A stretch of 64,000 nt of DNA from Sneathiella chinensis (lineage in GTDB: Bacteria > Pseudomonadota > Alphaproteobacteria > Sneathiellales > Sneathiellaceae). Under the pieces are notes generated by a model. The model saw nothing but the letters and a program-made list of their open reading frames with translations, was not told the DNA's origin and did not search any database. Position 1 is the first letter of the stretch; each line of letters opens with the position of its first letter. The stretch spans positions 372,001 through 436,000 of the forward strand of contig NZ_VNWN01000007.1 of NCBI RefSeq assembly GCF_012720115.1. Direction: 5' to 3'. Positions 24,294 through 27,562 of this stretch are shown here, one piece after another. A program made the translations under genes and the position numbers.

Positions 24294-25160
24294 TCAATTT
24301 CCACAACCGGCAGTATCCAATATATCCAGTTGAACCAGACTGCCGTTCAGGGAGAAATCCTCGTATTTCAGGACAAGGTCGCTGGCCACACCATTTTCAA
24401 ACATTTTCAAACCCACCTCAAACTCCGGCTCGTTGCTTTGGGCGCTGAGATCAAAATAGGACATCTGCACCGGCCAGTAGGGCAAATTGCCCATATCCCT
24501 GTCCTTCAGAAGGGTGCTGTCGCTTTTTCCGCTCTTGCCGATCACGGTCAGGGTATCGAACAGGCCATTGACCCCGTTCCCGTCATAGATTTTGGCGGAA
24601 AGAAGGTTTTTCCCGGCCTTTGCCGATTTCAGGATTTCCCGGGTATGCCCCGTCGGAAAGATCACCCCTTCGGGCAGGTCAAGGCGGTCCGCCCCGTCTT
24701 CGGAAAAGGTGACACTGCCCCCTGCGGATCCCAAGTTTGCCACACCATCGTAATTCTCGATGGTCCGGCCATTCAGCACATTGGACATGGTGAAGCGCAT
24801 CAACTGACCGGCCCGATCCTCCCAGGTGGACAGGTGATAATCTGATGTCATGCTGTCCCCACTGATATTCAGCAGTTCCACCAGCATCCGCTGGTTCATC
24901 AGCACCCCTTCACAGGAATTCTCTACCTCCATGACGATCCGGCCGCGCACATCCTCGATCCCCCCGTCGCGGTGGAATTCCTTCAGGGTCAGATCATAGA
25001 CCGCCCGATGAGAGGCCAGCGCCACACCCCCTGCATGGGATAAAGCGGGTGCCACCACCGCAAACAGGCCGAACAGGGAAAAAAGTATGGAAAGTCGGTA
25101 GGCGATCTTGTCTGTCATCAAATCAACGCTGCGTTTCAGTTGGGCTGTTTTTATAATCAT
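24294..25160 (-). CDS. eipB: EipB (DUF1849) periplasmic cell-envelope integrity protein
   Basis: A 288-residue exported beta-rich protein. The signal peptide is 'MTDKIAYRLSILFSLFGLF...SHA'. The family blocks are 'ALASHRAVYDLTL', 'GGIEDVRGRIVMEVENSCEG', 'WEDRAGQLMRFT', 'VIFPTGHTREIL' and a C-terminal Cys ('DTAGCGN'). The two cysteines match the conserved disulfide of Brucella EipB, needed for envelope integrity. The ATG at 25160 is used; an ATG at 25118 directly before the signal peptide is equally good. It heads a minus-strand group with DUF898 and M48. Confidence 0.88.
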   Translation of the reverse strand: MIIKTAQLKRSVDLMTDKIAYRLSILFSLFGLFAVVAPALSHAGGVALASHRAVYDLTLKEFHRDGGIEDVRGRIVMEVENSCEGVLMNQRMLVELLNISGDSMTSDYHLSTWEDRAGQLMRFTMSNVLNGRTIENYDGVANLGSAGGSVTFSEDGADRLDLPEGVIFPTGHTREILKSAKAGKNLLSAKIYDGNGVNGLFDTLTVIGKSGKSDSTLLKDRDMGNLPYWPVQMSYFDLSAQSNEPEFEVGLKMFENGVASDLVLKYEDFSLNGSLVQLDILDTAGCGN

Positions 25161-25351
25161 CCAGTAATAAACCTCTGTCCCGCCCGTGTGAAGCTGAAAC
25201 TCTGGCGGTTTGATAAAATTTTACCCATTCGGAAATTCCTGTCCTGCACCCGGAACTTTTTTCCCCCTTGCGACCATAAACAACCTATCCGCCCTCCCAC
25301 CCGGCTGTTAAAGGCGGTTGTTTTTAATGGCAAATTTGGCCTAACCGAAAA

Positions 25352-25367
25352 TGGCACACTCCTTGCT
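25352..25367 (+). promoter_or_regulatory. Sigma-54 (-24/-12) promoter of the diguanylate cyclase gene
   Basis: TGGCACACTCCTTGCT matches the RpoN consensus TGGCACR-N4-TTGCW with exact GG-to-GC spacing. It is intergenic, on the coding strand of the cyclase, with start of transcription expected near 25378 and a 75-base leader. Upstream activator sites were not recognised. Confidence 0.65.
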
Positions 25368-25378
25368 TGTATGGGGTC

Positions 25379-25448
25379 GAGGCGAGAAAAGCCTTTATGA
25401 AAACGGTAATCAGGACGGGCGAAGCCCGGACGACGAGATCAAGGAGTG
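25379..25448 (+). promoter_or_regulatory. Structured leader of the diguanylate cyclase mRNA
   Basis: Two hairpins fit the predicted leader: AGGC/GCCT around GAGAAAA (25380-25394) and CGGGC/GCCCG around GAA (25416-25428). The Shine-Dalgarno AAGGAG (25441-25446) follows. CAAGGAGTG (25440-25448) is also exactly complementary to CACTCCTTG (25357-25365), but that segment is inside the promoter and probably not transcribed. No known riboswitch class is recognised. Confidence 0.3.
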
Positions 25449-25454
25449 GTTTAT

Positions 25455-26186
25455 ATGTCAGCAACATTTTCTGTCGCAGCGGCATTGGACATTAAAACAT
25501 CTGTTCAGAATGGCGGGGATATCACCAAATATCTTGAGGATCTTGCCGACGGCCTGAAGAATAATGACAGGCATCGTCCGGAAGGAGAGGCCAACCACTG
25601 GGCGTTGATCAACCGTGTGCTTGCCTATGCGGCCAGTGCCGAACAGCACATCTTCGAACAACAGGCCCGCATTCGCGAACTGGAGAACCTGTCCTCAACG
25701 GATGAATTGACCGGTCTGCACAACCGTCGCTCCCTGAAAGAATTTCTCGACCGCGAGATTTCCCTTGCCCGCCGCCACGGGAACGAAGGCATTGTCGCCT
25801 TTCTGGATATCGACCGGTTCAAGCAGATCAACGATACCTTTGGCCATGATGCCGGCGACAAGATGCTGCAGAAAATCGCCGAGGTTCTGGCGGCAAACCT
25901 GCGCGATACGGACTTCATCGCCCGTCTTGGCGGGGACGAGTTTGTGTTTGTCCTGACCAATGCCAACCAGAAGGACGGCTTCAATCGCGCCCGGCAAATT
26001 CAGGAAACCCTGTGTGACAGCACCGTCCAGCTTCGTGATGGCGACACCCCCCTGTCCGTCAGCATGGGCCTTGCCGCCTTTGACAGGGACAGCAGCTATG
26101 ACCGTGTCCTGCGGGCAGCGGACCTGAGCATGTACAAGAACAAGAGAGAACGCCGTCAGGCAGGTGCGGCCCGCGCCCTGCAATAG
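25455..26186 (+). CDS. GGDEF diguanylate cyclase
   Basis: A soluble 243-residue protein that should make cyclic di-GMP. The N-terminal 75 residues are helical with no known domain. The GGDEF domain begins at 'SSTDELTGLHNRRSL', with metal Asp in 'FLDIDRFKQINDTFGHDAGD', GGDEF at 159-163 and an I-site RDTD at 150-153, so catalysis and product inhibition should both be intact. ATG 25455 has AAGGAG 8 bases upstream. A sigma-54 promoter precedes it, implying control by an enhancer-binding protein. It converges on a class III nucleotidyl cyclase, placing two second-messenger genes side by side. Confidence 0.95.
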   Translation: MSATFSVAAALDIKTSVQNGGDITKYLEDLADGLKNNDRHRPEGEANHWALINRVLAYAASAEQHIFEQQARIRELENLSSTDELTGLHNRRSLKEFLDREISLARRHGNEGIVAFLDIDRFKQINDTFGHDAGDKMLQKIAEVLAANLRDTDFIARLGGDEFVFVLTNANQKDGFNRARQIQETLCDSTVQLRDGDTPLSVSMGLAAFDRDSSYDRVLRAADLSMYKNKRERRQAGAARALQ

Positions 26187-26209: not shown

Positions 26210-27499
26210 TTAAAGGCAGGTATGCGCCTCAATCAGCAAGGCCGCTTGGGGGGAAAGCCCGAACAGCTCCTTCGGTTTCTCCACACCGCGCAAGACATGG
26301 TGGCCCAGCGGCTGCAGGATTTCCGTGCAGGTTCTGGCCCGCCGGGCAAACTCACCGGAAATCACAAAATCCCGCCCCAGCGCATCACACAGGCTTTCCA
26401 TGCGGCTGACCTCGTTCACGGCGGAACCGACCACGGTGAAATCCAGCCGGGTCTGGGACCCTACATTGCCGTACATCACCTCGCCCACATGCAGGGCCAC
26501 GTCCAGTTCCATACTGAGCAGCCCCTTCGCCTGACGCTCCAGATTAAGTTCCTTGATCCGGGACAGCATTTCAATCGCCGATAACAGGGCCGTCCGGCAG
26601 ATATCCTCCTCCTCGTCCGGCCGCATGGGGAACGTGGCCAGCATGCCATCCCCCATGAATTTCAGAATCTCGCCGCCCGCCCGCTCAATGGGATCGGCCA
26701 TGCGCTCCAGATACTCATCCAGGGTAAACATGATATCGGACTGGTTGATCCGGTCCGACAACACCGTAAACCCCCGAAGGTCGGCAAAGACCAGCACTGC
26801 GTCGATGCTGTCGGCGGCGCCCCGCTGGATATTCCCGGACAGCACCTTGCGGGACGTTCCCCGCCCCACATAGGTTTGCAGCACGGTTTCCGCCATATCG
26901 AAAGAGGCAATCCCCTTGATAGCCAGCCCCAGCAATGGAACGGCCTTGCCCAGCAGAGCAAAATCACGCTCGGTAAAGCCACCGGGCTTGCAGGTCGCCC
27001 ACGAGGTGATCAGGCCTGTGGCGTTCTCGGGAAGAAGATTTTCGTGGCTCCAGCCAAAATCGAAAATCCGGGCGAACCAGTCGGTCAGCCCCTCGTCCCG
27101 GAATTCCACCAGAACAGGGAAATCAAGATCACTGTCTTTTTGCAGCGGGCGGTGCAGGAAATAAGTGTTGTTGGACAGCATGTAGAAGAACGGACTGGCG
27201 AACCAACCCTCCCCCGGCTCGTCCGAATGCAGGATATTGGTACTGAGGACCGTTCCTTCCGACTTGCGCCACGTATACATGAAGGCACTGACCTGCGGAT
27301 GAATGGCACTCAGCGCGATATTGGCCCGCTGTATCCGCACATCCAGCGCCTCAAGACGCTCGCAAAACTGGGCCAGAAGATCCGCAAGGGGCAGACCGGA
27401 AAGACCCGCTTCCATCAGCCAGTCAAAGAATTCCTCTTCCGGGGTTTGTGCAGGCAGGTGCTTACATTCCTGTTCAGTCTTGATCGTCTGCGAACCCAT
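26210..27499 (-). CDS. Class III adenylate/guanylate cyclase
   Basis: A 429-residue soluble protein. Residues 25-205 are an uncharacterised sensor-like region. The C-terminal cyclase domain has the two metal aspartates (Asp240 in 'VFADLRGFTVLSDR', Asp284 in 'ILKFMGDGMLATF'), the base-selecting Lys280, 'VALHVGEVMYGNVGS' and the transition-state Asn/Arg in 'VVGSAVNEVSRMESLC'. The Lys suggests ATP and thus cAMP. ATG 27499 is chosen for the GAGGTGG Shine-Dalgarno. The gene is convergent with the diguanylate cyclase and divergent from the aldehyde dehydrogenase gene. Confidence 0.92.
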   Translation of the reverse strand: MGSQTIKTEQECKHLPAQTPEEEFFDWLMEAGLSGLPLADLLAQFCERLEALDVRIQRANIALSAIHPQVSAFMYTWRKSEGTVLSTNILHSDEPGEGWFASPFFYMLSNNTYFLHRPLQKDSDLDFPVLVEFRDEGLTDWFARIFDFGWSHENLLPENATGLITSWATCKPGGFTERDFALLGKAVPLLGLAIKGIASFDMAETVLQTYVGRGTSRKVLSGNIQRGAADSIDAVLVFADLRGFTVLSDRINQSDIMFTLDEYLERMADPIERAGGEILKFMGDGMLATFPMRPDEEEDICRTALLSAIEMLSRIKELNLERQAKGLLSMELDVALHVGEVMYGNVGSQTRLDFTVVGSAVNEVSRMESLCDALGRDFVISGEFARRARTCTEILQPLGHHVLRGVEKPKELFGLSPQAALLIEAHTCL

Positions 27500-27562
27500 T
27501 ACCACCTCACTACCAGTCACTCGCCTAAAAGCATATAGTAACAACACAGGTGATTAGAAGGC

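Follow-up and report, generated by a model that had tools for sequence, protein, structure and literature searches.

A putative FlbD- and sigma-54-controlled diguanylate cyclase gene in Sneathiella chinensis and its relatives

Genes and signals at the locus

The window, as the term is used here, is the whole 64,000 nucleotide stretch of the Sneathiella chinensis genome that was analysed (accession: NZ_VNWN01000007.1, 372,001 bp–436,000 bp, forward strand), and positions are given as those of the window. The assembly from which it was taken comprises 3.55 Mb in 19 contigs and is 99% complete. Within the window, a diguanylate cyclase gene was flanked by a divergent EipB-like gene and a convergent class III nucleotidyl cyclase gene, with the following features:

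24294–25160, minus strand: EipB-like gene, divergent, given as the longest frame (the true start may lie further in); partner of the diguanylate cyclase gene in 20 of 20 genus loci
25164–25192, minus strand: probable sigma-70-type promoter of the EipB-like gene, TTCACA-N17-TATTAC, read by eye
25252–25264, no strand assigned: predicted FlbD site, palindrome GGAACTTTTTTCC with core GGNAN5TNCC, 100 nt upstream of the −24 element, located with a flgF matrix
25352–25367, plus strand: sigma-54 promoter with −24/−12 elements, TGGCACACTCCTTGCT, based on a pattern match and ortholog conservation
25378, plus strand: predicted transcription start, placed by a position rule 12 nt past the C of the −12 GC
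25379–25395, plus strand: hairpin H1, GAGGC / GCCTT, with GAAA in the loop, based on near-clade pairing with the arms placed by eye
25416–25428, plus strand: hairpin H2, CGGGC-GAA-GCCCG, based on covariation in an unguided alignment
25441–25446, plus strand: Shine-Dalgarno sequence AAGGAG, of which GGAG is invariant across the near-clade alignment
25455–26186, plus strand: diguanylate cyclase gene (ATG at 25455) encoding 243 amino acids, with a GGDEF domain, GGDEF active site and RxxD I-site
26210–27502, minus strand: convergent gene for a class III nucleotidyl cyclase, with ATG 27502 taken as its start; present in 19 of 20 genus loci

Letters similar to the putative sigma-70-type promoter of the EipB-like gene were seen in many of the upstream sequences; the promoter scan did not report it. 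Beyond the genus, a divergent EipB-like gene was present in 13 of the 23 class-level loci L163–L185, with a piece of it at the locus edge in three more, and also at L019, L020 and L030; the EipB pairing reaches other families. Among the 20 genus loci the convergent class III cyclase gene was absent only from L102, which ends at a contig edge, and it was found additionally at L116 and L165; these neighbour counts come from loci most of which extend for 1.5 kb only. These conserved neighbours indicate that the linkage is old. It had been proposed that two second messengers meet at this locus. Conserved synteny upheld the convergence of the two cyclase genes, and nothing pointed to shared control of the neighbours. 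The strand of the class III cyclase gene carried no TGGCAC-N5-TTGC-like site with up to two mismatches in its upstream region (27502 bp–29378 bp).

The sigma-54 promoter and its conservation

The TGGCACACTCCTTGCT sequence was the sole exact match to TGGCAC-N5-TTGC within the window. It lay on the same strand as the GGDEF gene with 87 nt between it and the start codon, which bears out the original prediction of a near-perfect −24/−12 site upstream of that gene, as the AAGGAG sequence does for the predicted consensus Shine-Dalgarno. A single copy of RpoN was encoded by the genome (PF04552 match, 228.9 bits). When up to two mismatches were allowed, the pattern occurred 79 times in the window, against 86 expected from shuffles. 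Genome-wide there were 10 exact matches and 8 to the reversed control; at least five of the 10 fell well within reading frames, and others stood before a flagellin gene, flgF and a gene for an unknown 325 amino acid protein. Genome-wide enrichment was dropped as evidence as there was no surplus over the reversed control. The bare pattern is weak evidence, so the argument has to rest on conservation.

Orthologs of the cyclase were sought in 40 genomes (the S. chinensis genome, 23 congeners and 16 others of the class), with a clear ortholog defined as one scoring at least 220 bits. This revealed clear orthologs in 19 of the 23 congeners and in two other families (G024 and G032), which together with the window gave 22 ortholog loci. 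The congeners without a clear ortholog were G006, G007 and G010, which are 66%, 84% and 65% complete respectively, and G015, which is 94% complete; G007 carried an ortholog fragment at a contig end, while G015 encoded FlgF and FlbD and no cyclase ortholog was found in it. An alignment of the upstream regions of relatives had been suggested as a check on the GG and GC dinucleotides, and both were found to be retained with exact spacing (GG-N10-GC) in all 22 loci, the complete TGGCAY-N5-TTGC being present in 19.

A wider search of the class returned matches in 54 of 385 genomes at E ≤ 1e-38, and the loci of 30 of these were taken in; orthologs at this level were picked by score and not by tree. 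The 25 class-level loci examined were L116, L117 and L163–L185, the first two of which were also among the 22. With score weights set by hand from the sigma-54 consensus, a site scoring at least 0.91 was present in 24 of the 25, the exception being L182. A mechanical rule, which took the longest frame as the gene, placed a site in 20/20 genus loci, 21/25 class-level loci and, among named records, all four alphaproteobacterial loci of the short form: L016 (Aestuariispira insulae), L019, L020 (Terasakiella brassicae) and L030. The additional class-level misses under this rule were L170, L181 and L184, in each of which the earlier class-level scan had found the site. Under the same rule, the site preceded only 3 of 75 other GGDEF genes (75 of 76 control loci were usable, and they included the long alphaproteobacterial GGDEF proteins L035 and L083, which had no site) and occurred in 0.5–2.5% of shuffles. 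Among relatives that lack the ortholog, none of the eight best GGDEF genes had the site.

The lack of enrichment of the bare pattern in the window or genome is what would be expected if the promoter-like sequence were a chance match. The conservation of position, spacing and enhancer among orthologs, and the rarity of the site before other GGDEF genes, make this explanation exceedingly improbable. The original observation of the site at 25352–25367 is confirmed, and control of the diguanylate cyclase gene by RpoN is supported at the level of sequence.

The enhancer and candidate activators

Six matches to enhancer-binding proteins were found in the S. chinensis genome, four of them strong. Two were in an ntrBC–ntrYX arrangement (names assigned by eye), one was elsewhere, and one lay within a fliF-fliG-motA-flhA region, approximately 8 kb from a ctrA-like gene (several of these names were assigned by eye). 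The activator in the fliF-fliG-motA-flhA region was identified as FlbD (NCBIfam NF050807, 781.6 bits against a cut-off of 750), and FliX was also encoded by the genome (PF10768, 118.1 bits against a cut-off of 25).

An enhancer matrix was built with flgF promoters only, taken from 20 genomes (S. chinensis and 19 congeners). In each of these promoters its core, GGNAAAWTTNCC, was located at −97 to −100 relative to the −24 element, within a preset range. When this matrix was scanned over the 200 nt before the 22 cyclase promoters, 17 again had their top match at −97 to −100 and five had it elsewhere, and a shuffle p ≤ 0.05 was obtained in 21/22. For the cyclase promoter in the window, the top match was the palindrome at 25252–25264 (shuffle p 0.01). 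The S. chinensis fliK, flgF and probable flgI promoters shared the enhancer, at −99, −98 and −86 respectively. Since the enhancer occupies the flgF-type position and RpoN, FlbD and FliX are all encoded by the genome, FlbD, a flagellar protein, is the most probable activator of the cyclase gene.

RpoN control had been predicted to tie c-di-GMP synthesis to motility or to nitrogen. The enhancer common to flgF, together with FlbD and FliX, favours motility, and the poor NtrC-like matches speak against nitrogen. Consensus patterns were used in the searches for NtrC, CtrA and IHF sites. The best NtrC-like match in the window had four mismatches, none of the 22 promoters had a match with fewer than two, and nitrogen control was rejected. 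The two activators in the ntrBC–ntrYX arrangement could in principle drive the promoter and couple c-di-GMP to nitrogen status, but with NtrC matches this poor, and a conserved enhancer that resembles those of flgF promoters, regulation by NtrC or NtrX is very unlikely. The remaining activator of the genome, at C14:460972, is complete and carries a receiver domain; as a driver of this promoter it deserves equally little credence, given that the cyclase enhancer is common to flgF promoters across the genus. Exact CtrA boxes (TTAA-N7-TTAA) were present in 2 of the 22 promoters, and the best in the window had two mismatches. FlbD might also act in the opposite direction, repressing the cyclase gene as it does the early gene fliF in Caulobacter, and the accessible text of PMC3930126 reports that it acts both ways at ftr sites. 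We consider repression here quite improbable, as a complete sigma-54 promoter follows the site after approximately 100 nt, just as at flgF.

An IHF-like sequence was found between the enhancer and the promoter. Of the 22 cyclase promoters, 14 had it at −43 to −39, compared to 7 of 1056 background windows, and it was located at about −30 in 18 of 20 flgF promoters, compared to 13 of 1040 background windows, the range used for flgF (−33 to −29) having been picked after inspection of the sequences. The two positions are approximately one helical turn apart. In the window itself the element was poor, with three mismatches.

The FlbD motif of Caulobacter is given in the accessible text of PMC3333781 as CCCGGCA-N5-TGCCGGG, the core of which (GGCA-N5-TGCC) is spaced like the enhancer found here. 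At least 10 of the 14 positions of this consensus were matched in 20 of 24 class-level promoters (14% of shuffles) and at least 11 in 11 of 24 (2.5% of shuffles), and before other GGDEF genes the corresponding counts were 8/76 and 1/76. Within the genus, p ≤ 0.05 was reached in only 3 of 20 cyclase promoters, and the best match in the window (10/14, p 0.08) was at −52, not at 25252–25264. Two of the four named-record loci reached 10/14 and none reached p 0.05. As the flgF promoters of the genus themselves rarely fit the consensus (10/14 was reached in only 5 of 20), it is likely that the genus uses an A/T-rich variant of the FlbD site. Comparison with the published consensus speaks in part against the window site and in part in favour of the cyclase family.

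The distribution of the two proteins was also compared among the 385 class genomes, of which 54 encoded the cyclase, 185 encoded FlbD (E ≤ 1e-110) and 40 encoded both. FlbD was present in 40/54 genomes with the cyclase and in 145/331 without it (Fisher p 2.8e-5, which is optimistic because the genomes are related). Thus 145 of the 185 FlbD-positive genomes lacked the cyclase at the threshold used. Full FlbD was absent from 14 of the 54 cyclase genomes, and the cyclase was thus not found exclusively alongside FlbD. FlgF was also missing from nine of these 14, four of which (G135, G231, G334 and G401) retained a sigma-54-like site before the cyclase gene; G048, G082, G146 and G363 encoded FlgF without full FlbD. 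Missing contigs or recent loss is likely in G231, G334 and G401, because their congeners G397, G251 and G237 have FlbD. The four genomes that keep the site may be incompletely assembled, or a different activator may be at work in them. In G320, also one of the 14, FlbD was in two pieces; L182, alone among the class-level orthologs in having no sigma-54 site, belongs to this genome, which fits joint decay.

Two further sites were noted in passing. At L129:19770 (minus strand), a TGGCATGATGCTTGCT site was found approximately 100 nt downstream of a GGTAAAATTTGCC palindrome, and no clear gene followed it. At L131:7856–8833 (minus strand, promoter at L131:8872), a gene for a 325 amino acid protein had a perfect sigma-54 site, an enhancer-like palindrome, CCCGGAAATTAATTCCGG, and an IHF-like sequence. 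The protein had no Pfam or NCBIfam match, and the gene may be an unrecognised flagellar gene.

The encoded enzyme, its mRNA leader and related systems

The cyclase had a single Pfam domain, GGDEF (149.5 bits), with an RxxD motif five residues upstream of GG[DE]EF. Among the 49 ortholog proteins, 46 could be parsed by pattern: 44 had GG[DE]EF, two had GGDEY, and RxxD was present in all 46; the remaining three had SGDEF or AGDEF. By these features the protein would be an active, product-inhibited diguanylate cyclase. A structure model (mean pLDDT 79, built from 5 sequences, the first 20 residues being poor) showed N-terminal helices followed by a long helix, residues 42–108, that runs into the catalytic domain. 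The best conserved part around the start of the domain was the helix segment EQxxRIxxLExLSxTDELTGL. The identity of the protein was compared with that of two described cyclases. DgcB of Caulobacter, as described in the accessible text of PMC7885107, is associated with the stator and links the motor to c-di-GMP. Its catalytic glutamate is E261 whereas that of the window cyclase is E162, so the N-terminal parts of the two proteins differ and identity with DgcB was rejected; both are diguanylate cyclases linked to the flagellum, but in that text DgcB is tied to the stator and not to FlbD. Identity with SiaD (NCBIfam NF038266) was also rejected, at 151.2 bits against a 290-bit cut-off, and the likeness to SiaD-type small GGDEF proteins extends over residues 74–235, the catalytic half only.

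Taken with the promoter and enhancer, these features make it likely that the gene encodes a soluble diguanylate cyclase of the late flagellar regulon under FlbD and sigma-54. Once the MS ring, C ring and export gate, which are early parts of the flagellum, are in place, FliX would let FlbD bind the enhancer, and bending of the DNA, probably by IHF, would carry the FlbD-bound enhancer to the RNA polymerase holoenzyme. The genes for rod, hook and filament would then turn on together with that for the cyclase. In cells that have just gained a flagellum this enzyme would make c-di-GMP, with its own I-site setting a limit. A swimming cell would thus already carry the enzyme that would later lower motility and promote attachment. 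This arrangement suggests a coupling between flagellum building and production of the signal that terminates swimming.

To our knowledge, little is known of how swimming cells prepare to stop in alphaproteobacteria outside Caulobacter. If the proposal is true, an enzyme of motility exit is made as part of building the flagellum, from the same promoter class as the rod and hook genes, and its presence in many families offers a concrete, testable gene where the c-di-GMP wiring is unknown. In enteric bacteria, PdeH belongs to the FlhDC/FliA regulon. It is likewise a c-di-GMP enzyme within a flagellar regulon, but a phosphodiesterase under sigma-28 rather than a cyclase under sigma-54.

One of the closest known parallels is in Caulobacter, where FlbD and FliX activate the middle and late flagellar genes after assembly of the early parts (accessible text of PMC3930126, PMC3096577 and PMC7064773). 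The cyclase locus shares with those promoters the sigma-54 promoter, a distant palindromic enhancer with the published core spacing, FlbD and FliX in the genome and the IHF-like sequence between enhancer and promoter. It differs in encoding a signalling enzyme and in lying apart from the flagellar regions that were fetched. The outer arms of the Caulobacter consensus are not kept at the window site, and no such target is named in the accessible text of those articles. DVU1063 of Desulfovibrio vulgaris, an FlbD-like sigma-54 regulator with flagellar targets, has a motif resembling that of FlbD (GGCAxxxxTGCC, PMC3333781); it belongs to a different class, and in the accessible text of that article no GGDEF gene is named as a target and GGDEF appears only among the domain names in a figure legend. 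No description of an FlbD-controlled diguanylate cyclase was found in the accessible open-access literature, including the available text of PMC12363192, PMC3333781, PMC3096577, PMC3930126, PMC7885107, PMC4287350, PMC7064773, PMC13432727 and PMC5845226. This does not establish novelty. The promoter type, the activator and the enzyme are each of known kinds, and their combination looks like an unnamed, widespread member.

The predicted leader of the cyclase mRNA is 77 nt long. Folded as a single sequence, it was slightly better than mononucleotide shuffles (z −1.6). Of the two hairpins originally predicted in it, both are present and differ in how they were recovered. Hairpin H2 was returned by an unguided alignment of nine near-clade leaders, 5 of its 7 consensus pairs showing double changes, and with its arms placed by eye 62 of 72 positions paired between cognate arms of the nine sequences, compared to 39.9 between swapped arms. 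H1 was not recovered by the unguided fold of the near-clade leaders. It was seen with arms placed by eye, when 38 of 40 positions paired between cognate arms compared to a mean of 25.1 between swapped arms (8 of the 9 near-clade leaders, L114 being omitted). Placing the arms by eye favours pairing in both counts. Seven leaders of a more distant subclade had another, longer hairpin with weak covariation, and the other six of the 22 leaders were folded singly only. The covariation of the hairpins could point to a riboswitch that gives feedback from c-di-GMP or another ligand. No Rfam family was found in the window at the gathering threshold or at E up to 1, the structure comprises just two short hairpins, and the distant subclade has a single, different and longer one; a riboswitch is accordingly most improbable. 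Probably these structures either stabilise the transcript or gate its translation.

A broader reading is possible, though we regard it as doubtful. The cyclases would form an unnamed FlbD/sigma-54 family that spans many alphaproteobacterial families, is often divergent from eipB and converts the checkpoint of flagellar assembly to a signal carried by c-di-GMP. A second, translational checkpoint, comparable to the control of flagellin by FlbT, would come from the covarying leader, and in the genus cAMP signalling would be linked through the convergent cyclase.

The flgF leaders of the genus (L133–L152) were also inspected. Many of them carried a GGCAGATCAATTTGTGCC-like inverted repeat just past the predicted transcription start.
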